Part shown: one piece after another, positions 4 to 29,140 of the stretch
How the letters are laid out: each line of letters starts with the position of its first letter
How positions within the stretch are numbered: the first letter of the stretch is position 1
NCBI GenBank assembly: GCA_024762475.1
Contig: JANTHJ010000025.1
Coordinates: 1 to 32,157, forward strand
Source: Chromatiales bacterium
GTDB lineage: Bacteria; Pseudomonadota; Gammaproteobacteria; Chromatiales; Chromatiaceae
Length of the DNA: 32,157 nt
Direction: 5' to 3'
The notes under the pieces: model-generated
Told to the model about the DNA's origin: nothing
The model's input: the letters and a program-made list of their open reading frames with translations, nothing else
Database searches by the model: none
Program-made: the position numbers and the translations under genes

Positions 4-366
4 TGGTGGAGGCGGGGGGAATCGAACCCCCGTCCGCGGATCCTCCGCCTTCGGTTCTACATGCTTAGTCAGTCTATTGTATTTAGCCGCAGGCTGCCCG
101 ACTGACAGGGCATGCCGTACGGCGAGTCCGGTAAGGTTTTAGCGATTTGGCCCCGGACGAGCCTCCTCGCGATTCCATGAGAGTCGACGCCTCTAACCTG
201 GACGCATGGACACGGCTCCAGTGAGACGGCACCCTACCGGGTATTAAGCGGCGAGTGCGTAGTTGTCGTCGTTGGCAACTATTTGGTTTGCAGATGATTT
301 ACGAGGTTCTGCACCTCGGCATGCACCTCAGGTTTTGCAATCCACGTCGAAATCCGTGTCGCCCCC
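4..366 (-). ncRNA. ssrA: tmRNA (transfer-messenger RNA)
   Basis: One-piece tmRNA that rescues stalled ribosomes together with SmpB and tags the nascent chain for proteolysis. Read on the minus strand, the 5' end GGGGGCGACACGGATTTCGACG is the usual tmRNA opening. The 3' end GGTTCGATTCCCCCCGCC plus TCCACCA is a T-arm followed by an encoded CCA. The first seven bases (GGGGGCG) pair with CGCCTCC before ACCA to form the tRNA-like acceptor stem, which fixes both ends. The length of about 363 nt is normal for a gammaproteobacterium. smpB lies upstream on the same strand, as in E. coli. The mature 5' end is normally made by RNase P, so transcription probably starts somewhat upstream. Confidence 0.97.
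244..276 (-). other. tmRNA proteolysis-tag reading frame
   Basis: The internal tag frame of ssrA reads ANDDNYALAA followed by TAA, with GCC as the resume codon. The E. coli tag is ANDENYALAA, so this differs only by Asp for Glu at position 4. The terminal ALAA is the ClpXP-recognised degron. It is not an independent gene. Confidence 0.93.
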
Positions 367-3342: not shown

Positions 3343-3855
3343 CTATTCCTCGTCCTCGTCGAGCCCAACCGCCTGCAGGGCCTTTCCGACCAGCGTCTTT
3401 GCCTCCGGGTTCCAGTCTGGCACCTTGACCACGCCTTTTTTTGCAACCGGCGCCTGATCTTTTTGAGGTTGCGGCCGGTAATCGCCCACGACACGAGTCA
3501 AACGCCCATTGTCGAAAAAGACCGCAAGGTGCTTGATTTCCGTGGGATGACTCCCTTTGCCGACCGTGTAGGGATAGTCCCAGCGATTCGCATGGAAGAA
3601 ATCGTTTAACGTCGGCGTGCCCAGCACGAAGCGGACCTGCTCCCGCGACATGCCAGGCTTCAGGCGATTGACCTGTTCCTGGGTGACCACATTGCCCTGC
3701 TCGATAGTCGGGCGGTAGATGAAGGGCGCCCGGTCGAGGGCCTGCGGAATGATATCCGTAACGCTGCCGAGCTTCTCGGCACCTTTCCCGATGGTACTGC
3801 AGCCCGTGTTGATCAGGGTTGCCGGCAGAATGATGGAAATGAGAAGCTTGCGCAT
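3343..3855 (-). CDS. bamE: outer membrane protein assembly factor BamE
   Basis: Small lipoprotein of the BAM complex, which inserts beta-barrel proteins into the outer membrane. The SmpA/OmlA domain is clear: IYRPTIEQGNVVTQEQVNRLKPGMSR then VRFVLGTP and a WDYPY segment, about residues 45-100. The N-terminus is a short signal with a Cys at residue 19. The bases before it encode LINTGC, so the -3 position is Asn rather than the usual Leu, a weak lipobox. At 170 residues it is longer than E. coli BamE (113) because of a C-terminal extension ending in DEDEE. It is divergent from fur and ends exactly at ratB. Confidence 0.95.
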   Translation of the reverse strand: MRKLLISIILPATLINTGCSTIGKGAEKLGSVTDIIPQALDRAPFIYRPTIEQGNVVTQEQVNRLKPGMSREQVRFVLGTPTLNDFFHANRWDYPYTVGKGSHPTEIKHLAVFFDNGRLTRVVGDYRPQPQKDQAPVAKKGVVKVPDWNPEAKTLVGKALQAVGLDEDEE

Positions 3856-20300: not shown

Positions 20301-20552
20301 TTAACCCGAATATTTCACCCGGTCGCTGAAAAATACTGATAACTTACTGGTTGCAAAAGATATTATTCGTATATTAGCGGGTAACGAAATGTTACCGGTC
20401 CAACGCTGGACGCGTCCTCGCGTCGATCTGGCCGCCCTCAAGCGGTATTTCCTTCCTCACCAATAGGCTGGCTATTGATTCGGTCGGAAATCCGCTCGAG
20501 AACGCCCATCTCGGCACGATCATCGCGTCCCCGGGTGAAATGTCCGGGTTAA
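20301..20552 (+). mobile_element. palindrome-ended interspersed repeat, copy A (252 bp)
   Basis: First of three copies of a non-autonomous repeat (B 22007-22153 inverted, C 28981-29140). Its ends are near-perfect inverted repeats: CCCGAATATTTCACCCGG on the left, the complement of CCCGGACATTTCACCCGG on the right, both outside TTAA. The shared interior of about 110 bp includes AAAAATACTGATAACT and CGTATATTAGCGGGT. Copy A is longer because it has 93 extra bp between two GATC words (20425, 20518). No transposase is encoded. The size and ends suggest a MITE-like element. Confidence 0.75.
20441..20496. repeat. nested hairpin inside repeat copy A
   Basis: An outer inverted repeat (AGCGGTATTTCC with GGAAATCCGCT, one bulged base) encloses an inner one (CAATAG, loop GCTGG, CTATTG). 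It lies in the 93 bp that copies B and C lack. The GATC words at its borders look like a short target duplication or a recombination trace. Confidence 0.6.
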
Positions 20553-20563
20553 CCCGATATAAA
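20535..20563 (+). promoter_or_regulatory. possible outward promoter at the right end of repeat copy A
   Basis: GTGAAA (20535-20540, inside the terminal repeat), exactly 17 nt, then TATAAA (20558-20563, outside it). Four and five of six bases match the sigma-70 boxes. Transcription would run to sat, 187 bases away. Confidence 0.4.
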
Positions 20564-20640
20564 AAGAACCTTGGGGCAGAAACCCTGCAGGTCTGGTAGT
20601 TTTAGCATCCGATAACGCGCTGATACGCGAATGCGCGACT

Positions 20641-20662
20641 TTTTAGATTTTAAAATCAAAAA
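20641..20662. promoter_or_regulatory. AT-rich palindrome upstream of sat
   Basis: A 22-bp palindrome in which TTTT, A, GATTTT is mirrored by AAAATC, A, AAAA with one mismatched pair. It lies in an AT-rich patch unlike the surrounding sequence, 88 bases before sat. It may be an operator. The remaining sequence from 20564 to 20749 has no gene that I can see. Confidence 0.45.
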
Positions 20663-20749
20663 GATAGTGCATTAAATTAAAGCAACCTGTCAGTATTTTC
20701 TGCTGGCGTTCCCGGTTACGTTTGACTCTAGTGCTGGAGGAGAATCCGC

Positions 20750-21940
20750 ATGATCAATCCCGTTGGCTCCGACGAGCTGAAGCCCCTTTTCGTATATGAC
20801 GTCAATGAGCACGAGCAGCTCATGCACGAGGCAGAATCGCTCCCCTCGATCGTGATCAGTTCTCAGGCGGCTGGTAACGCGGTGATGTTGGGCGGTGGCT
20901 ACTTCAGCCCCCTGAAGGGGTACATGGACGTCGCCGATGCCATGGGCGCGGCCGACAAGATGATCCTGACCGACGGCTCCTTCTTTCCGGTTCCTGTCAT
21001 GTGCCTGGTGGAGAGCACCGATTCGATCGGCGATGCGAAGCGCATCGCGCTGCGTGATCCCAACGTCGAGGGCAATCCCGTTCTGGCGGTAATGGACGTC
21101 GCCAGCATCGAGGAAGTCACCGACGAGCAGATGCAGTTCATGACCGAGAAGGTCTATCGCACCACCGATCCGGAACACCCGGGCGTGGCGGCCTTCAACG
21201 GCCAGGGTCGTATCGCCCTGTCCGGCCCCATCAAGGTCTTGAACTTCTCCTACTTCATCACCGACTTCCCGGACACCTTCCGTACCGCGGTCGAGATCCG
21301 CAACGAGATCAAGGAGCGCGGCTGGAACAAGGTCGTTGCCTTTCAGACCCGCAACCCCATGCACCTGGCCCACGAAGAGCTGTGTCACATGGCGATGGAG
21401 CGCACCGGCGCGGACGGCCTGGTGATCCACATGCTGCTGGGCAAGCTCAAGCCGGGCGACATCCCGGCGCCGGTACGTGACGCGGCGATCCGCAAGATGG
21501 TCGAACTCTACTTCCCGCCGAACAGCGTAATGGTTTCCGGCTACGGCTTCGACATGCTGTATGCCGGTCCGCGCGAGGCGGTGCTGCATGCCTACTTCCG
21601 CCAGAACATGGGCGCGACCCATTTCATCATCGGTCGCGACCACGCGGGCGTGGGCGATTACTACGGCGCCTTCGACGCCCAGACCATCTTCGACGAGGAG
21701 GTGCCGCCGGGCGCCCTGCAGATCGAAATCTTCAAGGCCGACCACACCGCCTGGTCGAAGAAGCTCAACAAGGTGGTGATGATGCGCGAGGCGCCGGACC
21801 ACACCAAGGACGACTTCATCCTGCTGTCGGGCACCAAGGTGCGTGAGATGCTGGGCCAGGGCATTGCCCCGCCGCCGGAGTTCTCGCGTCCGGAGGTGGC
21901 GCAGATCCTGATCGACTACTACCAGGGCCTGAACAAATAA
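20750..21940 (+). CDS. sat: ATP sulfurylase (sulfate adenylyltransferase), dissimilatory type
   Basis: Interconverts ATP plus sulfate with adenosine phosphosulfate plus pyrophosphate. In sulfur oxidisers it runs in the ATP-forming direction after APS reductase. The single chain of 396 residues has the Sat motifs: QTRNPMHLAHEEL near residue 200 (the QxRNP and HxxH nucleotide motif), GRDHAGVG, and LSGTKVREML near the C-terminus. The Riftia symbiont enzyme has the same length. It is not the two-subunit CysDN type. GGAGGAG precedes ATG 20750. It stands alone between inverted repeat copies A and B, with its own terminator. Genes for APS reductase are not in the window. Confidence 0.96.
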   Translation: MINPVGSDELKPLFVYDVNEHEQLMHEAESLPSIVISSQAAGNAVMLGGGYFSPLKGYMDVADAMGAADKMILTDGSFFPVPVMCLVESTDSIGDAKRIALRDPNVEGNPVLAVMDVASIEEVTDEQMQFMTEKVYRTTDPEHPGVAAFNGQGRIALSGPIKVLNFSYFITDFPDTFRTAVEIRNEIKERGWNKVVAFQTRNPMHLAHEELCHMAMERTGADGLVIHMLLGKLKPGDIPAPVRDAAIRKMVELYFPPNSVMVSGYGFDMLYAGPREAVLHAYFRQNMGATHFIIGRDHAGVGDYYGAFDAQTIFDEEVPPGALQIEIFKADHTAWSKKLNKVVMMREAPDHTKDDFILLSGTKVREMLGQGIAPPPEFSRPEVAQILIDYYQGLNK

Positions 21941-21962
21941 TCAGGCGCTACGCGCGATCGAG

Positions 21963-21995
21963 AACCCGCCCGGCCCCGGCCGCGGCGGGTTTTTT
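21963..21995 (+). terminator. rho-independent terminator of sat
   Basis: AACCCGCC and GGCGGGTT pair around a GC-rich loop and are followed by TTTTTT. It lies about 23 bases after the sat stop. Confidence 0.88.
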
Positions 21996-22006
21996 CTTGC
22001 CCGGAG

Positions 22007-22153
22007 TCAGCCCGAATATTTCACCTGGGGGCGCGAGGGCGCGCCCAGCGGTTGCCCAGCAACATTTCGTCACCCGCTAATATACGCAGGATACCTTTGG
22101 CGACCAGTGAGTTATCAGTATTTTTCAGCGACCGGGTGAAATATTCGGGTTAG
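22007..22153 (-). mobile_element. palindrome-ended interspersed repeat, copy B (147 bp, inverted)
   Basis: Reverse-oriented copy of the family. Read on the minus strand it begins CCCGAATATTTCACCCGGTC and ends with the complement of the same motif. It lacks the 93-bp insert of copy A and about 11 bp near the right end. With copy A it brackets sat and its terminator. The remaining bases to 22391 hold short tandem and REP-like repeats and no gene. Confidence 0.75.
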
Positions 22154-22168
22154 TGTGGAAAAACTCAC

Positions 22169-22195
22169 CACAGAGATCACAGAGGCCACAGAGGG
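22169..22195. repeat. 9-bp tandem repeat, three units
   Basis: CACAGAGAT, CACAGAGGC and CACAGAGGG follow one another exactly. Similar CACAGAG runs are found between genes in many gammaproteobacteria. Confidence 0.6.
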
Positions 22196-22247
22196 GGTAG
22201 CATTCAGAGAGACGGCCGGTATGGACAGCAAGCTGATACACCGCCTC

Positions 22248-22302
22248 GTCGGGTTGAAACCCGGCCTACGGGACCGGGTGTAGGTCGGAATTCATTCCGA
22301 CA
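22248..22302. repeat. pair of REP-like palindromic units
   Basis: Two related stem-loops in opposite orientation. The first (22248-22270) is GTCGGGTTGAAACCCGGC plus CTACG; the second (22279-22302) is TGTAGGTCGGAATTCATTCC plus GACA. The two tails CTACG and GTAG are inverted relative to each other. This is a typical REP doublet, which a RAYT transposase mobilises in other genomes; no RAYT gene is here. Confidence 0.6.
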
Positions 22303-22364
22303 AATCGCTGTCTGGGCGGTTACCCTTTTCCATGATCACGAGTGTGGCCAGGGCCTCATGGGAG

Positions 22365-22386
22365 CTAGCCCGAATGTTTCACGAGG
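22365..22386 (+). repeat. solo terminal motif of the interspersed repeat, before nudF
   Basis: CTAGCCCGAATGTTTCAC then GAGG. It matches the ends of copies A, B and C except for a few bases, but no internal part of the element follows. Its last bases are the nudF Shine-Dalgarno. Confidence 0.55.
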
Positions 22387-22391
22387 ACGAC

Positions 22392-23003
22392 ATGAACTAC
22401 CGCTACGAATTGCTGGAGAGCGAACGGATCTGCGATGGCTTCCTCAAGCTGGACCGGCACCGCTTGCGGCATGCGTCATTCCGCGGCGGCTGGTCCGCCC
22501 CCATCGTGCGCGAGCGATTGGAGGATCTGGCCGCGGCCTCTGTTCTGCTCTACGACCCGGAACCGGATGTCCTGGTCTTCGTTGAACAGTTCCGGGTGGG
22601 ACTGATGGGCCAGGTGGAGCCCCCCTGGACCCTGGAGACCGTCTCGGGCTTTTGCGACAAGCGACACGAGCGGCCCGAGGACGTGGTGCGCCGCGAGGTG
22701 GTCGAAGAGACAGGCTGCGAGTTGCTGGCACTCCTGCCCATCGGCCGCTTCTTCGTCAGTCCGGGCATCTCGTCCGAACAGATCCACCTGTATTGCGGGC
22801 GGGTGGACAGCCGCGGCGCACAAGGCATCCATGGGCTTCCCGAGGAAGGTGAGGAGATACGCGTGGTGAAGATGGATCGGACCGAGGCCATGGGCGAGCT
22901 GTTCGGCCGGCTCAACTCGACCAGTGTGCTGATGGCGATGCAGTGGCTGGCGCTCAATCTGGAAGTCGTAAGACGGGCCTGGCTACCCGCCGGGAGGGTG
23001 TAA
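22392..23003 (+). CDS. nudF: Nudix hydrolase, ADP-ribose pyrophosphatase type
   Basis: Predicted to cleave ADP-ribose to AMP and ribose 5-phosphate. The 203 residues are similar in length to E. coli NudF. The start YRYELLESERICDGFLKLDR and the VLLYDPEPDVLVFVEQFRVG strand are typical. The Nudix box is near residue 85: GFCDKRHERPEDVVRREVVE then ETGCEL. The RE-x-x-EE-x-G core is intact, but the segment from the first Gly to Glu has six residues instead of five. VSPGISSEQIHLYCG follows, like the SPG loop of ADP-ribose enzymes. I chose ATG 22392, with GAGG 5 nt before it, over ATG 22374. It is convergent with the secretin-N gene and overlaps it by 21 bases. Confidence 0.85.
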   Translation: MNYRYELLESERICDGFLKLDRHRLRHASFRGGWSAPIVRERLEDLAAASVLLYDPEPDVLVFVEQFRVGLMGQVEPPWTLETVSGFCDKRHERPEDVVRREVVEETGCELLALLPIGRFFVSPGISSEQIHLYCGRVDSRGAQGIHGLPEEGEEIRVVKMDRTEAMGELFGRLNSTSVLMAMQWLALNLEVVRRAWLPAGRV

Positions 23004-23789
23004 ATCGGCGGGGAGCACCCGAACCGATATCTGCAACTGGTTTTCGGCGCGGGTGGTGGCACGAATACCGATACCGTGCTGGCGCCCTGAGCTGCTGGTC
23101 TCGATGCTGCCAACCGGAATCCATTCGCCCAGCCGTCCGGTGACCACGGTCGCGGCCTGTTGGGTGCGGAACTCGCCGGTGCGGGCTGCTGGACGTTCGG
23201 CCTGTTGATAGACCTCGACCGTCACCTGGTCGCCATGCACCCGGGGGAGCACATAGATGCCGGTGGTGATGTCCTTGTATTCGAGGTGCATGCGCTCGTT
23301 CGTATACGGACCATCCTGCCAATGCTCCACCTGATAGATGGGCACCGAGCGGCCGATCTGGATCAGGGCAGGGCGCCCATCCAGGGTCCGCACCCGCTGC
23401 ACGCCTTCGCCGCGACGTCGGGTATGTCCGGCAAAGGCGCGCACCTGCGCCTGCATGCCATAGGTGTCGATGTCCACCGTGGCGCCTTGCCGCTCGCGTC
23501 CACTGCCGGTCTGCACTTCCACGATCAGATCGCGTGGGGCGCGGTCCAGCTGCTGGATGAGCCGCCGAACCTCGTCGAGACGTCGGAATGGTGCGCGCAC
23601 GATCAAGCGATTGTCATAGACCGAGACCGAACCGTCTTTGCCCAGCAAATCCCTCAACGGCGGCACCAGGTCGCTGGCGAGGCGATGGCGCACATCGAAG
23701 ATGGTGGTTTCTTCGGCCGATAGTGCCTGGAGCGGCAGCCACACGACCAGCAGTAGAAGCAGCAATCGGGAGACAGGGATTTTCATCAT
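22983..23789 (-). CDS. stand-alone secretin N-domain protein, exported
   Basis: Protein of 268 residues with a signal peptide (MMKIPVSRLLLLLLVVWLPL then QALSA). Residues about 30-90 form a secretin short domain: TTIFDVRHRLASDLVPPLRD, NRLIVRA and VRRLIQQLDRAPRDLIVEVQ. A beta-rich region with VTVEVYQQ and TVVTGRLGEWIPVGSI follows; it resembles part of the secretin core, but the length is too short for a full secretin pore. Similar short proteins are annotated as secretin N-domain or NolW-like. The start is ATG 23789 or the next codon. It is the last gene of the DMT-roxA-GNAT group, 14 bases after GNAT. Function unknown. Confidence 0.72.
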   Translation of the reverse strand: MMKIPVSRLLLLLLVVWLPLQALSAEETTIFDVRHRLASDLVPPLRDLLGKDGSVSVYDNRLIVRAPFRRLDEVRRLIQQLDRAPRDLIVEVQTGSGRERQGATVDIDTYGMQAQVRAFAGHTRRRGEGVQRVRTLDGRPALIQIGRSVPIYQVEHWQDGPYTNERMHLEYKDITTGIYVLPRVHGDQVTVEVYQQAERPAARTGEFRTQQAATVVTGRLGEWIPVGSIETSSSGRQHGIGIRATTRAENQLQISVRVLPADLHPPGG

Positions 23790-23803
23790 CTGTCCAGTGT
23801 AGC

Positions 23804-24244
23804 TCACGCCAGAGGGCGCGACATGCGCCGGTGCGCAATGCCGGCATCCTGAAAGACATCGCCCTCGGGGCGAAAGCCGTGTCGGCGATAGAAGCCCTCT
23901 ACAGAACACTGGGCGTTGAGAAACACCGATTTTAGTCCGGCCTGTTGGGCGAGCGCGATGAGCCTCTCGAGCATGGCGCTGCCGATGCCGCAGCCCCGCC
24001 AGTCTCGGCGTACCGCCATGCGGCCGATATGGCCGTTGGCCAGGAGGCGGCCGGTGGCCAAGGGCGTCGTCCCGGTGGCATCCCATACCAGCAGGTGCAG
24101 GGCCTGCGGGTCGCCGGCATCTTCCTCCAGTTCGGCCGGCACCCCCTGTTCGTCCACGAAGACCTCGAAACGGATGGCCAACAGGGTGTCGCGGGCCTGT
24201 ACCCAGTCCACCTGCTCGATGCGGAAGCGACTCGCCTTACTCAT
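23804..24244 (-). CDS. GNAT family N-acetyltransferase
   Basis: Small acetyltransferase of 146 residues. The acetyl-CoA loop RRDWRGCGIGSAMLERLI near residue 80 fits the RxxGxG/A motif. FEVFVDEQGVPAELEEDAGD is the N-terminal segment seen in the YjcF/ElaA-like subgroup, and FYRRHGFRPEGDVFQDAGI is its C-terminal block. I chose ATG 24244, which overlaps the roxA stop (GATGAGTAA), so it is translationally coupled to roxA. Target unknown. Confidence 0.88.
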   Translation of the reverse strand: MSKASRFRIEQVDWVQARDTLLAIRFEVFVDEQGVPAELEEDAGDPQALHLLVWDATGTTPLATGRLLANGHIGRMAVRRDWRGCGIGSAMLERLIALAQQAGLKSVFLNAQCSVEGFYRRHGFRPEGDVFQDAGIAHRRMSRPLA

Positions 24245-25397
24245 CGCTCTGCAGCCAGCCGCGGGTGACCAGTTCGGCCAGCAGGGCATCCAGCAAGTCA
24301 GGATTCGGTGGCAGGGGCAGCCGATCGATTGGCAGCTGTCGCTGACGACAAAGGACGGCCAGTGCCGGTGCCAGTGCCTTGTCGACGTCCAATGCTTCAC
24401 CCTGGCAACACAGCGTCAATGTATCCGCATCGGTTTCGAGCAACGCGAATCGCGCCCAGGGATGCCGATACAGCCACCGGCCCTCGGTACGCCAATGGGC
24501 CGACTGTTCCGCAGAGGTCGGTCGCTCACAGGGGTCAATCTCGAAGCCGGGCTTGGGTTCGGTCAGATAGCCGCCCAGCCAGCGTCGAAATGCCGCATCG
24601 TCTTGGGGTACACCGCCCTGCATCAGGCTGCAGGCATTTGCGATGTCCTGTCGAGACAATCTGGTCGGATTCTCGACGGGACCTTTGATGCTGTCGCCGA
24701 GGTGGGGGCGCTCGCCCTGTGCAAGGTGGGCTGCCCAGGCGGCCATCAGTTCCGCGTCCGACGGGCCGCGCATGCCCACCGACCAGGTCATGCACTCGCC
24801 GAGTGCAGTCCCCCAGTGTCCGACCCTGGGTGGCAGATAGAGCACATCGCCTGGTTCGAGCACCCAATCCTCGTCCACTGGAAAACCCCTGAGCACCCGC
24901 AGGGGGCAGTCTTCGAGCAGATCCTCTTCGGTGAATGCCCGGTCGCTAAGGCGCCAGCGGCGCCGTCCTGCCGCCTGAATGAGAAACACATCATAGTGGT
25001 CGATATGGGGCCCCACGCCGCCACCGTCGACTGCATAACTGATCATGATGTCATCGAGGCGCCAGTCCGGTATGAAATCGAAGGCATCCAATAGCGCTGC
25101 AACATCCGGCAGGTGCTTGTCGACATCCTGCACCAGCAGGGTCCAGCCCCGTTCCGGCAAGGTGCCGAATACGGTCTCGTCGAAGGGCCCGTGTTGCAGC
25201 GACCACTCGGTGTCGCCCGTCCGGCAGATCAGGCGAGACTCGATATCCGGTTCGCAGGCCAGACCGGCCAGCTCATCCGGCGCAAGCTTTAGACACTCGG
25301 GGGACAAGGCCTGCCGCAGCACCACCGCTCGCCGCTGCCAGTATTCGGCGAGAAAGCGTTGCCTGGAAACATCTCTGAATATCAGTGGCGGAATCAT
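24237..25397 (-). CDS. roxA: ribosomal protein uL16 arginine 3-hydroxylase (RoxA/YcfD)
   Basis: 2-oxoglutarate and Fe(II)-dependent oxygenase with a JmjC-type cupin; E. coli YcfD hydroxylates Arg81 of uL16. The 386 residues match the family. The iron triad is visible as GPHIDHYDVFLIQ (H131, D133) and VGHWGTAL (H194). ISYAVDGGGVGPHIDHYDVF precedes a WRL strand, as in the family. The C-terminal winged-helix region ends with LLDALLAELVTRGWLQSDE. The ATG overlaps the DMT stop as ATGA and its end overlaps the GNAT start, so three genes are coupled. Confidence 0.93.
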   Translation of the reverse strand: MIPPLIFRDVSRQRFLAEYWQRRAVVLRQALSPECLKLAPDELAGLACEPDIESRLICRTGDTEWSLQHGPFDETVFGTLPERGWTLLVQDVDKHLPDVAALLDAFDFIPDWRLDDIMISYAVDGGGVGPHIDHYDVFLIQAAGRRRWRLSDRAFTEEDLLEDCPLRVLRGFPVDEDWVLEPGDVLYLPPRVGHWGTALGECMTWSVGMRGPSDAELMAAWAAHLAQGERPHLGDSIKGPVENPTRLSRQDIANACSLMQGGVPQDDAAFRRWLGGYLTEPKPGFEIDPCERPTSAEQSAHWRTEGRWLYRHPWARFALLETDADTLTLCCQGEALDVDKALAPALAVLCRQRQLPIDRLPLPPNPDLLDALLAELVTRGWLQSDE

Positions 25398-26329
25398 GTT
25401 GATCGGTCGGGGACACCCTGGCGGTGCCGGGGAGAGTCGGCCGACGGCAGGCGGCCGCTACCGGTGACGAGGGCGGATATCAGAATCAGCAGCGCGCCAC
25501 CCGCCGTTGCCAGGGTGACGGTCTCGCCCCAGAACAGCCATCCCAGAACCGCGCCGAATACCACCGAAAAGAAAGAGAAAGGGGCGAGGCGCCCTGCGGG
25601 TGCCCGTCCCATGCCCCGTGACAGCATGAGTTGTCCACCGGTCGCCAGCAGCCCGGTCAAGACGACCCATCCCACGGCGGTCGGCGTTGGGGTTTGCCAC
25701 AACCAGGGCAGCGGGGCAGTGGAAACCAGCAGGCCTGTGAGTGCGAAATAGAAAACGATCAGCTCTGGCGCCTCACTATGGGTGAGTCGTCGAACCGTTA
25801 CCTTCGCCAATGCGGCCAACAGACCTCCGGCGAGCGCCACCAGTGCGACCGGGTCTATACCCTGGTCGTCCGGTGCGAGGATGACCAGTACCCCAGCGAA
25901 ACCGATACCCAGCGCGATGGGAATACGCCACCCCAGGGGCTCGTGCAGCCAGGCCAGCGCGATCAGGGGAATGAACAGCGGCGCGGTGAGCTTCAGCAGC
26001 ATGGCCTCGGCCAGGGGCATGTGGGCAATGGCGTAGAAGAAGCAGTACATGGCGGCAGTGCCGCTGAGCCCCCGCAACAGGTGCAGCCAGGGCACTCCGG
26101 TTGCCAGACGCTGGACTCCGCCGCGTGCCGACAGCCAACTCAGCAGGATCGCGGCGCCCACGAGATTTCGGCCGAACACGATCATGGCGTTGTCGAGTTC
26201 GACTGAAGCCATGCGAATCGCTCCGCCCATGGCGGCGAACAGAAACTCCGAGGTCATGATATAGAGTCCGCCCGCCAGGATGCCGCGATGGTGATGATGC
26301 CGAGAAGGATGTCGAGCAGCGTGAATCAT
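25394..26329 (-). CDS. DMT superfamily (EamA) transporter
   Basis: Inner-membrane protein of 311 residues with ten predicted helices in two EamA halves. The first helix begins at about residue 16 (GILAGGLYIMTSEFLFAAMG); AEAMLLKLTAPLFIPLIAL is in the first half and WVVLTGLLATGGQLMLSRGM in the second, with FSVVFGAVLGWLFWGE the usual EamA end. The first 15 residues include an HHHH run; a start at M25 would cut the first helix, so ATG 26329 is preferred. The substrate is unknown. It heads the coupled group with roxA and is divergent from the OmpA-like gene. Confidence 0.9.
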   Translation of the reverse strand: MIHAARHPSRHHHHRGILAGGLYIMTSEFLFAAMGGAIRMASVELDNAMIVFGRNLVGAAILLSWLSARGGVQRLATGVPWLHLLRGLSGTAAMYCFFYAIAHMPLAEAMLLKLTAPLFIPLIALAWLHEPLGWRIPIALGIGFAGVLVILAPDDQGIDPVALVALAGGLLAALAKVTVRRLTHSEAPELIVFYFALTGLLVSTAPLPWLWQTPTPTAVGWVVLTGLLATGGQLMLSRGMGRAPAGRLAPFSFFSVVFGAVLGWLFWGETVTLATAGGALLILISALVTGSGRLPSADSPRHRQGVPDRST

Positions 26330-26372
26330 TTAGTTTGGACCTGCAGTGGGCAGTTCGCCAGTGTCGGGAACC

Positions 26373-26416
26373 GAAGACGCGAATATTATGACGTTTTGAT
26401 GTATGGAAGACGCGAA
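26373..26416. repeat. direct repeat pair upstream of the OmpA-like gene
   Basis: GAAGACGCGAA occurs at 26373-26383 and 26406-26416, exactly 33 bp apart, which is about three helical turns. The second copy ends just before the candidate -35 box. The arrangement fits two binding sites for one regulator on the same face of the DNA. Confidence 0.5.
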
Positions 26417-26419
26417 GGC

Positions 26420-26448
26420 TTGAACTTTGTGCGACATGTCGGTCTAAT
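26420..26448 (+). promoter_or_regulatory. probable sigma-70 promoter of the OmpA-like gene
   Basis: TTGAAC (26420-26425), a 17-nt spacer, then TCTAAT (26443-26448, five of six). The transcript would begin near 26455 and have a leader of about 85 nt. Confidence 0.55.
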
Positions 26449-26493
26449 GCGACGCAGTGGCGGAGAGGGTGTCTCCAATCTGCGTAATACGTC

Positions 26494-26509
26494 ATCCCCG
26501 ATGGGGGAT
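26494..26509 (+). other. leader hairpin upstream of the OmpA-like gene
   Basis: ATCCCC, loop GATG, GGGGAT: a short perfect hairpin that ends 31 bases before the ATG and about 20 before the Shine-Dalgarno. Outer-membrane protein messages often carry protective 5' stems; it may stabilise this RNA. Confidence 0.45.
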
Positions 26510-26540
26510 CAATTTGGAAACTTGTTGGGGAGGAAATTCC

Positions 26541-27311
26541 ATGTTCCAAAAAACCGAAAAGAAGCTTTTCGCTATTGCTCCCATCGGTCTGGCCATCGGC
26601 CTGGCGTTTGGCAGCATCGGCACCGCCAGCGCGGCAGCACATGGCGGTATGAAGATGAATGGTCCTTACGTGCTGGACAGTGCCGGCAAGGTTGTCGTGG
26701 ACGGCAGTGGTAAGTGTGTGAAATCGCCTGGCGGTTTCTCGATCTCCATCCCGGAGTGCGGCGATGCCATGGCGGCGGAAGGCCCGAAGGACTCCGACGG
26801 TGACGGTGTCACCGACGACAAGGACGAGTGCCCCGATACGCCGAAGGGTGTTGCAGTCAACGCTGCCGGTTGCCCGAAGGACAGTGACGGTGACGGCGTG
26901 GCCGACTACATGGACAAGTGCCCCGGCACCAAGGCAGGCGCCCGGGTCAACAGTGACGGCTGCGAGATCATTGAGAACGTGACCATTCAGACCACCGTGG
27001 ATCACTTCGATTTCGACAGTGCCGAGCTGAAGCCGGCCATGATGGCGGAACTGGACAAGATCGCGGACAAGATCAAGGCCACCAATGGTGATGAGAAGAT
27101 TCTGGTCATCGGCCATACCGACTCCACCGGCCCTGAGGCCTACAACCAGCGCCTGTCCGAGCGTCGTGCCCAGGCCGTAGCCGATTATCTGGCTGGCAAG
27201 GGCATTACCAATCTGAGCATCAAGGGCATGGGCGAGAGCCAGCCGGTCGCAGACAACGGTACTCGCGACGGCCGCGCGATGAACCGACGCGTCGAGATCG
27301 TGGTTCAGTAA
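26541..27311 (+). CDS. OmpA-family outer membrane protein with TSP3 repeats
   Basis: Exported peptidoglycan-binding protein of 256 residues. The signal peptide ends near ASA (about residue 31). Two thrombospondin type 3, calcium-binding-type segments follow: DSDGDGVTDDKDECPDTPKG and DSDGDGVADYMDKCPGTKAG. The OmpA C-terminal domain covers about residues 150-256, with HFDFDSAELKP, VIGHTDSTGPEAYNQRLSERRAQ bounded by HTDSTG and SERRA, and NRRVEIVV at the end. No eight-stranded barrel is visible, so it is probably anchored otherwise or periplasmic. GGGGAGGA lies 6 nt before ATG 26541, a strong site that fixes the start. Confidence 0.93.
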   Translation: MFQKTEKKLFAIAPIGLAIGLAFGSIGTASAAAHGGMKMNGPYVLDSAGKVVVDGSGKCVKSPGGFSISIPECGDAMAAEGPKDSDGDGVTDDKDECPDTPKGVAVNAAGCPKDSDGDGVADYMDKCPGTKAGARVNSDGCEIIENVTIQTTVDHFDFDSAELKPAMMAELDKIADKIKATNGDEKILVIGHTDSTGPEAYNQRLSERRAQAVADYLAGKGITNLSIKGMGESQPVADNGTRDGRAMNRRVEIVVQ

Positions 27312-27341
27312 GCGAACCTGGTCGCTTGGCGGCCAGTTCGA

Positions 27342-27373
27342 AAAAAACCCCGACCAATTGGTCGGGGTTTTTT
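27342..27373. terminator. bidirectional rho-independent terminator
   Basis: A perfect 14-bp stem, AAAAAACCCCGACC with GGTCGGGGTTTTTT, loop AATT. It lies 30 bases after the OmpA-like gene and 24 bases after the minus-strand HD-GYP gene, so it serves both converging genes. Confidence 0.95.
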
Positions 27374-27397
27374 GTGCCTGGCAGTTCTGTCCGGTGC

Positions 27398-28657
27398 TCA
27401 GATCGCGTGCGCCAGATCCTTTAGGAGGCCGTCCCGCTTCAGCTGATGTAGATCGATACCCAGATCCCGCGGCTTGTGTATGTTCACGATATACAGGGGC
27501 TTGCCATCCGGCCCCTTGGGATAGCTGGCCAGCTCGACTATCGTGGCGCCCTCTTCCTTTTTCCCGGATTCGGGCAGGATCAACACCTTGGGACGCAGCT
27601 GGAACCGGGGGCTGTTCTCCAGCACCATGGCATATCGACCATCGCTCAACTCCACCAGGGTTCCGGGTGGATACACCCCGATGGTCCGTATGAATCGGGT
27701 CACCAATCGGCCGTCCCATTGTCGCCCGCTGCCCTTGGTGAGGATCTTGAAGGCCTCCATGTGGGTCCGGCCGCTGTCGTAAATCCGATCGGAAGTGATG
27801 GCATCATAGGCATCGGTGACCGAAACGATCCGTGTGTAGAGTGTCATCTGATCGGCCGAGAGACCGCGGGGATAACCCTTGCCATCCACCCGCTCATGAT
27901 GCCCATGCGCTACATCCAGGGCGTTTGCGTTGACTCCATCGGTGGACAGGAGGATGTCCCGACCATGCACGGGATGGGCCTTCATGATCTCCATCTCTTC
28001 GTTGGTCAGGCGCCCCGGCTTCTTCAGCACCTCGTCCGGGGTCATGATCTTGCCGATGTCATGCAACATCCCGCACAGGCCAACCTCGTTGAGCTGTTGC
28101 CGGTCCAGGCCCAATGCACGGCCCAGGGAGATCGAAAGCACAGCCACGCTGAGGCTGTGCTCCGAGGTGTATTCGTCCTTGTGCCGAATGCGCGTGAGCA
28201 GGGTCATCGCATCCGGGTTCTCGAGGATGTTGTCGACGCAGTGAGAAACGACTTCCCGGGCCGCCGGCGTATCGATCGCCTTGCCCAGGCGCACGTCATC
28301 CATGATGTTGCGCACCAGCCGGTTGGATCCTTCATAGACCTTTTCTGCCTTGGCGACGGTTTCTTCGACAGGCGTTTCGAACTGTGCGCGACCCTTTGGG
28401 CGGGCGAAGAACGGACGATGTTCGGAAGGTTTTTCCTGGCGTTTCGGCTCCACATATTTGAGATGGTCTATTACCACCGTCTCGCAATGCTGACGGACGG
28501 TCTCGATGTCCTCCACCGTTTCCACGGTGAAACCCTGAAAGAGAAAGGGCGTTTCCTCCCAGGGGCGGTCGAGTTCGGTGACATACATGCCCGGCTCGAG
28601 TTCTTCGACCGGGATGCGGATCTTGTGACTGGTCTTGAATTGTCCTGGTGTAGCCAT
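27398..28657 (-). CDS. HD-GYP domain cyclic-di-GMP phosphodiesterase
   Basis: Predicted to hydrolyse cyclic di-GMP and so influence motility or biofilm. The 419 residues start with a DUF3391 region (about 10-130: IPVEELEPGMYVTELDRPW). The HD-GYP domain spans about 150-320 with EHSLSVAVLSISLGRALGL, the metal pair MLHDIGK (H199, D200), KAHPVHG, and GHHERVDGKGYPRGL with GYP at 261-263. All residues needed for metal binding are present. I chose ATG 28657 because the protein starts directly before DUF3391; the frame is open up to a TTG at 28747. AGGGA is only one base from the ATG, so the start is less sure. A shared terminator follows. Confidence 0.9.
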   Translation of the reverse strand: MATPGQFKTSHKIRIPVEELEPGMYVTELDRPWEETPFLFQGFTVETVEDIETVRQHCETVVIDHLKYVEPKRQEKPSEHRPFFARPKGRAQFETPVEETVAKAEKVYEGSNRLVRNIMDDVRLGKAIDTPAAREVVSHCVDNILENPDAMTLLTRIRHKDEYTSEHSLSVAVLSISLGRALGLDRQQLNEVGLCGMLHDIGKIMTPDEVLKKPGRLTNEEMEIMKAHPVHGRDILLSTDGVNANALDVAHGHHERVDGKGYPRGLSADQMTLYTRIVSVTDAYDAITSDRIYDSGRTHMEAFKILTKGSGRQWDGRLVTRFIRTIGVYPPGTLVELSDGRYAMVLENSPRFQLRPKVLILPESGKKEEGATIVELASYPKGPDGKPLYIVNIHKPRDLGIDLHQLKRDGLLKDLAHAI

Positions 28658-28980
28658 GTCCCTGGGATCTCGCGAAACTCCTGAAGCGGTTATCGGCCGA
28701 TGTTGCAGAACTTTAGGGTGCCTCGCCACAAACTGCCCCGGCTCCAATCAGGGCGTGCTGCGGTATGAACACCCTGGCGCCTGGTGGTGAAATCTGCACA
28801 GATGGCGGCCGATGTGGTCAGCCCCTCTCCGATGCCCGAGGAGGACCCGAATCGTCCGGATCTTTCACATGAGCAACGAGCAAAGTGGGAAGCAGTTTCG
28901 CAAATCCTGCGGAAGTCTGCCAGGCTTTCGCTTGTATCCCCGACGAGGGCATCCCTGTCCGTCATTTGCAGGTGGAAAAC
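28658..28980. other. gene-free stretch between HD-GYP and repeat copy C
   Basis: No recognisable gene. A plus-strand frame runs from 28784 into copy C and to its end (118 codons), and a minus-strand frame covers 28690-29103 (137 codons); neither resembles a known family and each crosses the repeat. I could not assign promoters here. Confidence 0.5.
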
Positions 28981-29140
28981 CTGGCCCGCATACTTCACCC
29001 GGTCGGCGAAAAATACTGATAACTCATTGGTCGCCAGAGATATTCTTCGTATATTAGCGGGTGACGAAATGTTGCCCGGCCAACGCTGGACGCGCCCTCG
29101 CACCGATCATCGCGTCCCCCGGGTGAAATATCGGCGCTAG
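28981..29140 (+). mobile_element. palindrome-ended interspersed repeat, copy C (160 bp)
   Basis: Third copy, same orientation as copy A. It begins CCCGCATACTTCACCCGG at base 28985 and ends with the inverted form GGTGAAATATCGG and CGCTAG. It lacks the 93-bp insert of copy A and keeps ACCGATCATCGCGTCC, which copy B has lost. Its right end stands two bases from the purB stop codon, so purB messages read through it. Confidence 0.75.

Follow-up and report, generated by a model that had tools for sequence, protein, structure and literature searches.

A conserved palindromic miniature inverted-repeat transposable element family in Chromatiaceae, probably mobilized in trans by IS1380-type transposases

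The window, a stretch of 32,157 nt corresponding to contig JANTHJ010000025.1 (C25) of a Chromatiales bacterium draft genome (GCA_024762475.1, family Chromatiaceae; designated G000; 3.0 Mb, 190 contigs), contained three copies of an interspersed repeat. This repeat is a new family of a known type, the miniature inverted-repeat transposable elements (MITEs), and is unusually conserved. The sequences indicate that it was probably moved in trans by a DDE transposase of the IS1380 family. The terminal inverted repeats of the element were CCCGRATATTTCACCCGG at both ends, and the outer 13–17 bp were common to the element and the IS1380 ends of related genomes.

Copy 1 (20305–20548, plus strand) was identified by repeat search and genome search as a full-length element of 244 bp, the length between the duplications in most complete elements elsewhere. 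Base-by-base reading showed TTAA as target duplication on its left (20301–20304) and right (20549–20552), and the bases after the right one agreed with relatives without the element. The left tip CCCGAATATTTCACCCGG (20305–20322, plus strand) was located by reading and tip search, and the right tip CCGGGTGAAATGTCCGGG (20531–20548, plus strand) by reading. The inner imperfect palindrome (20408–20530, plus strand) was recognized as a self inverted match and in the fold, and the core model matched at 20401–20537. Copy 2 (22011–22149, minus strand, 139 bp) and copy 3 (28985–29136, plus strand, 152 bp) were without the palindrome according to reading, repeat search and fold comparison. By reading, copy 2 was flanked by TCAG (22007–22010; one mismatch to TTAG) and TTAG (22150–22153); copy 3, whose outer ends were altered, was flanked by CTGG (28981–28984; one mismatch to CTAG) and by CTAG (29137–29140), 2 bases ahead of the purB end (29143). 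The three copies made up the longest direct and inverted repeats of the window (124 nt, 86%; 121 nt, 88%; 120 nt, 88%). All were intergenic, between pyrF and sat, sat and a NUDIX gene, and an HD-domain gene and purB. Open reading frames and gene content showed no transposase gene within them, and no conserved reading frame was noticed in the 244-bp unit. An earlier note, made from the window sequence alone, had described interspersed repeats with inverted ends that lie between genes and hold no transposase; the base-by-base reading, the repeat search and alignments across the genome bore this out.

In the own genome, a 252-bp query gave 45 alignments (best non-self E 1.3e-102), and the 14-base tip with at most one mismatch had 52 matches versus 0 for the reversed control; the likeness among the repeats is therefore not due to chance. 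Copies and fragments were tabulated in 39 rows; this number does not include C1:85258, C17, C44, C51 and C60, five loci with weaker or tip-only matches. Contig ends cut nine of the 39 rows, so two pieces may be one copy. A 250-bp consensus, which takes in parts of the target duplications, was built from the 23 rows with lengths of 220 bases or more. These near-full copies diverged by 2–19% from the consensus and by a mean of 14% from one another. The smallest pairwise difference was 5.5%, which makes this an old family within the own genome. The earlier statement that divergence was modest and the copies probably recent did not hold there; recent copies were found only in the related genome G163. 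The palindrome was lost in five own copies (copies 2 and 3, C28, C49a and the C10 copy of row C66) with four distinct breakpoint pairs, and the loss in copies 2 and 3 probably reflects slippage from one short direct repeat to another. Another element, with these tips and a different interior (CACAAAGGCG after the tip), was seen in the own genome at L069 (998–1248) and L068 (1038–1056). At L068 it was apparently interrupted at CTAG by a repeat starting GGAAGGTCTGAAAAA, which resembles the tip of MITEPsy1, a MITE of Pseudomonas syringae.

The target duplication of the element is 4-bp YTAR. Flanks were compared for 26 own copies that retained both ends, the other 13 of the 39 rows being excluded. 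The 4-bp flanks were identical in 14 of the 26 and differed by one base in 8 more as scored; the right flank of C129, with two tip bases missing, was set by hand, and copy 2, scored with a shifted end, is by reading a ninth one-base case. In other genomes, 104 best hits yielded 71 elements with both tips, and 33 were dropped with a tip missing or too altered. After one contig-cut row was removed, identical flanks were present in 44 of 70 elements (shuffled mean 15.4, maximum 26); three G199 rows in this set seem framed one base off. The 142 flanks included CTAG (52), TTAA (36), TTAG (16) and CTAA (10). At the right junction of copy 1, the relatives' loci L150 and L151 had TTAC or TTGC immediately ahead of CCCGATATAAAAAG, where the window has TTAA.

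Profile searches with PF13701 (IS1380-type transposase) gave matches in 21 of the 55 genomes searched, 17 of them over the cut-off. Tips of the element type were present on IS1380 copies of eight relatives (G001, G008, G032, G034, G036, G041, G042 and G222). The IS1380 tips were CCCGAATATTTCATAA and CCCGGATGTTTCATAA in G041 and CCCCAATATTTCACAA and CCCGCATGTTTCACCC in G222. Both ends were similar to the element tips in G042 and G001; in G008, G032, G034 and G036 only one end was seen, and its tip was similar, with TTATTCA for TATTTCA in G032, G034 and G036. Such a tip was not seen at some other IS1380 transposase loci (e.g., L124, L129, L130 and L132). In the complete genome G041, all 15 IS1380 copies fetched had identical 4-bp repeats (13 YTAR, 2 GTAG), as did 10 of 11 copies in G222 (nine YTAR, one TTCA). 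One G222 IS1380 directly abutted the right end of a MITE. At L110 (1751–4400; contig C375 of G001), four IS1380-like right ends were spaced 878–879 bases apart; they form a tandem array for which one-ended events may be responsible. The suggestion that the repeats were MITE-like thus agreed with the inverted tips, the duplications, the copy number, and the tips and target in common with the IS1380 elements of relatives.

Several results weigh against an IS1380 driver. The profile search of the own assembly gave no PF13701 match, and at E 0.001 none was found in 10 of the 19 other bearer genomes, G163 with its recent copies included (9 of 19 had a match). Likeness to three intact IS1380 elements hardly extended beyond the tips. 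A clean two-sided empty site was not found; to the left of copy 1, the window holds extra sequence that is absent in the relatives. A YTAR-like duplication is not in itself specific, because MITEPsy1, thought to be IS5-like-derived in the accessible part of its description, shares it (PMC3189936). Two of the lookups suggested by the earlier note were answered in part: relatives carried transposase elements with the same ends, but none was seen in the own genome and the interiors of the three compared were unrelated, and of the empty site only the right junction could be read.

Derivation of the element by internal deletion of a sampled IS1380 was considered and found unsupported, since the likeness to the three intact elements was mostly in the tips only; one longer alignment joined the G068 consensus and the G042 IS1380 (67 bases, 66%, E 0.001). 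A search for an autonomous element in G163 fetched 14 further tip regions, and the two with open reading frame lists showed no transposase. At L377 of G163 (2024–2760), two such tips enclosed about 740 bp encoding a YoeB-like toxin with a YefM-like antitoxin; this may be a cassette bounded by tips and lacking a transposase. At L382 of the same genome (2041–3270), about 1.2 kb separated the left part of the element from the right part, and an unrelated 221-aa reading frame lay in the interval.

A covariance model of the element core (R1; at most 15 candidates scored per genome, with stricter filters) detected the core in 22 of 210 genomes of the family and in 10 of 61 genera. DNA similarity alone gave matches in 6 of 55 relatives, the own genome counted. 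The repeat had been described as common in this genome; it is common there, but the description was too narrow. Among 80 named sat loci, L199 was the sole match to R1. Distant elements with altered tips and a recognizable core lay at L199 (about 3366–3530; TTATTCAT) and L233 (about 1500–1690; CATTTCTCACC), with R1 scores of 40 and 54 bits. Elements of about 230–260 bp with the same tips were present in the sister species G003 (a complete genome of the same genus), G004 and G006. The G004 and G006 elements shown had an end-to-end fold and largely different interiors, and one G004 element scored 33.6 bits with R1.

In G163, five copies at five different CTAG sites differed by 0–2 of 244 bases, from which it is concluded on sequence grounds that the family moved recently in this genome. 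Distances between elements and between tmRNAs were weakly related (r 0.24; 55 pairs, 11 genomes). G068 and G196 were 19.5% apart in tmRNA and 6.6% in element consensus; G199 and G200 were 0.5% apart in tmRNA and 24% in element consensus. Because these distances disagree, horizontal exchange of subfamilies across genus lines is suggested; sorting of old subfamilies is the alternative. A phage and plasmid search with one full copy gave no match, and a 29-base pattern representing the more common subfamily outside the own genome was not matched exactly in any viral contig, in a scan that did not cover the own-genome variant.

The consensus fold spanned the whole element (-118 kcal/mol for the plus strand, -143 for the minus strand), and the minus strand was the more stable in 16 of 16 genome consensuses. 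In the core alignment of 22 sequences, 96.5% of cells were paired and two-sided changes occurred at 8 of 36 pairs. These changes comprised 21 cells versus 4.1 in shuffles, and sliding the partners yielded at most 3; relatedness of the sequences inflates such counts. At least two Watson-Crick types were present at 25 of 63 pairs in the 16 consensuses. In the 20 scored copies of the own genome, 101 changes were one-sided; 4 were two-sided, against an expected 2.6, and 1 of these 4 was still paired. Eight genomes scored had 286 one-sided and 15 two-sided changes in sum (10 paired), versus about 6 expected; the excess was largest in G196 and G077, where it may reflect subfamily structure. With compensation between genomes and none above chance in the own copies, the hairpin is conserved between lineages and decays among the copies of the own genome. 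Compensatory changes are compatible with a hairpin that acts either as DNA or as RNA. Counts of GU and AC tracked whichever strand was folded; the tmRNA control (11 of the 16 genomes) behaved alike, so this strand test was without power.

Placement was analyzed for 26 of the 39 own copies with a small gene caller based on codon usage in ten window genes. No called gene spanned a copy, one call had an 84-base overlap with a copy, and for one copy no gene was called. The remaining 25 lay between convergent (9), tandem (15) or divergent (1) genes. The flanking YTAR was the stop codon of the adjacent gene in 11 of the 25, versus 23 of 224 YTAR sites outside genes in 400 kb of the own genome with the same caller (p 1.5e-5); the background set retains sites at MITEs, and the stretches used for scoring were shorter for the copies than for the background. 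Ten of the 11 proteins ending at such stop codons were scanned, and eight had Pfam hits over the cut-off. Several matches reached the domain end, e.g., RecR with its C-terminal domain. Since flank and YTAR were continuous before insertion, the stop codon pre-existed. A test based on open-frame length showed no enrichment (own genome, 12/26 versus 135/318 control sites; other genomes, 5/15 versus 15/76). Because 42% of the own control sites passed, the rule was judged too loose; the result still counts against enrichment. According to the gene-call output of the own genome, gene-end copies were about equally frequent in both orientations.

On the preferred reading, an IS1380 transposase would bind the shared tips, move the unit and insert it at YTAR, duplicating the four bases. 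As YTAR contains TAA or TAG, insertion at a stop codon would regenerate the stop and the gene would stay whole. The driver has apparently been lost from the own genome, where the copies are decaying and some have lost the central palindrome. From the compensation between lineages, the palindrome would seem to benefit spreading copies, either through propagation or through host tolerance. A bolder version is offered tentatively, as the less probable part of the proposal: the element could be one long-lived MITE lineage, independent of any single insertion sequence, which would retain no more of one than the IS1380-read tips, together with a full-length hairpin required in cis for propagation, would move between genera with no transposase of its own and would settle at stop codons because its YTAR target restores them.

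A MITE driven by another transposase family with YTAR targets, e.g., an IS5-like one, appears unlikely. It would account for G163 and the own genome, where no PF13701 match was found, and MITEPsy1, listed as "IS5?", duplicates CTAG or YTAA in the accessible text of its report (PMC3189936); however, its tips (GGAAGGTCTGAAAAAGCC) differ from those of the element, and the IS1380 tips match. Somewhat less probable still is a conserved structured RNA, probably on the minus strand, within a transposable unit and serving host or element. The compensatory changes in the core alignment and among the consensuses, and the greater stability of the minus strand, speak for such an RNA, which the earlier note had named as one possibility. 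Rfam, however, matched none of the copies, the GU and AC counts depended on the folded strand as they did for tmRNA, the own copies were without compensation, and copies at gene 3' ends were about equal in both orientations.

Hardest to maintain is the reading of the element as an extragenic palindrome that is immobile and owes its spread to recombination or local copying. It would fit the whole-length palindrome, the intergenic placement and the old own copies, but target duplications, tips common to an insertion sequence family and near-identical copies at five unrelated G163 sites make it very improbable. Movement by an IS1380 transposase remains the reading preferred here.

The usual view of MITEs is that they arise by deletion from one insertion sequence and do not last long. 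This element has kept the same fold and a length close to 244 bp across several genera, and its subfamilies appear to cross genus lines. It provides a natural system for studying what a transposase-less parasite must conserve besides its tips. Placement at stop codons, if true in larger samples, would be a simple mode of harmless insertion. The family is also relevant to assembly, given the contig ends that fall in tabulated copies and fragments.

Other features of the window were also recorded. A lone tip, CTAG-CCCGAATGTTTCAC (22365–22382, plus strand; reading and tip search), lay directly upstream of the likely NUDIX start. Beside copy 1 and upstream of sat, the ATP sulfurylase gene, positions 20553–20579 (CCCGATATAAAAAGAACCTTGGGGCAG) were nearly identical to the sequences at L150 and L151 and resembled those at L149 and L152; they can be read as a putative conserved leader or control site. 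At the protein level, the closest sat loci identified among named records were 96% identical (metagenome-assembled genome J047) and 95% identical (Chromatiaceae bacterium CTD079). The tmRNA gene at 4–366 (minus strand), which served as control RNA, was the sole Rfam match in the window.

Comparison with known systems placed the element nearest to the IS1380 family, with which it shares the outer tip bases and the YTAR duplication in relatives' copies and from which it differs in having no transposase gene. ERIC-type repeats are full-length imperfect palindromes in related genera, with size and ends that differ from those of the element. No description of the family, which might have been a known repeat, was found in Rfam or in the literature searched, where most subscription journals lay outside scope. 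For IS1247, an IS1380 element, the accessible part of a Paracoccus study gives a 5-bp duplication (PMC3281130). In the parts available of the following sources, IS1380 is the outgroup for piggyBac, which usually duplicates TTAA (PMC10813416), and by analogy only, the TTAA and CTAG targets of the element would fit the wider piggyBac/IS1380 group. MITEPsy1 (100 bp) is likewise transposase-free with a similar 4-bp duplication, but the element tips do not match the GGAAGGTCTGAAAAAGCC that marks an IS5-derived MITE of its type (PMC3189936). Duplications of QMITE2 of Coxiella burnetii differ in being 7–11 nt long and variable in sequence (PMC5896051); QMITE1 and QMITE2 often lie in 3' untranslated regions and some at gene ends, a placement like that of the element copies (PMC5896051, PMC10969869). 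The Chunjie MITE of Geobacter uraniireducens (178–235 bp, 38 copies, 37 reportedly intergenic), compared by its description in a review, is near the element in size and copy number (PMC10969869).

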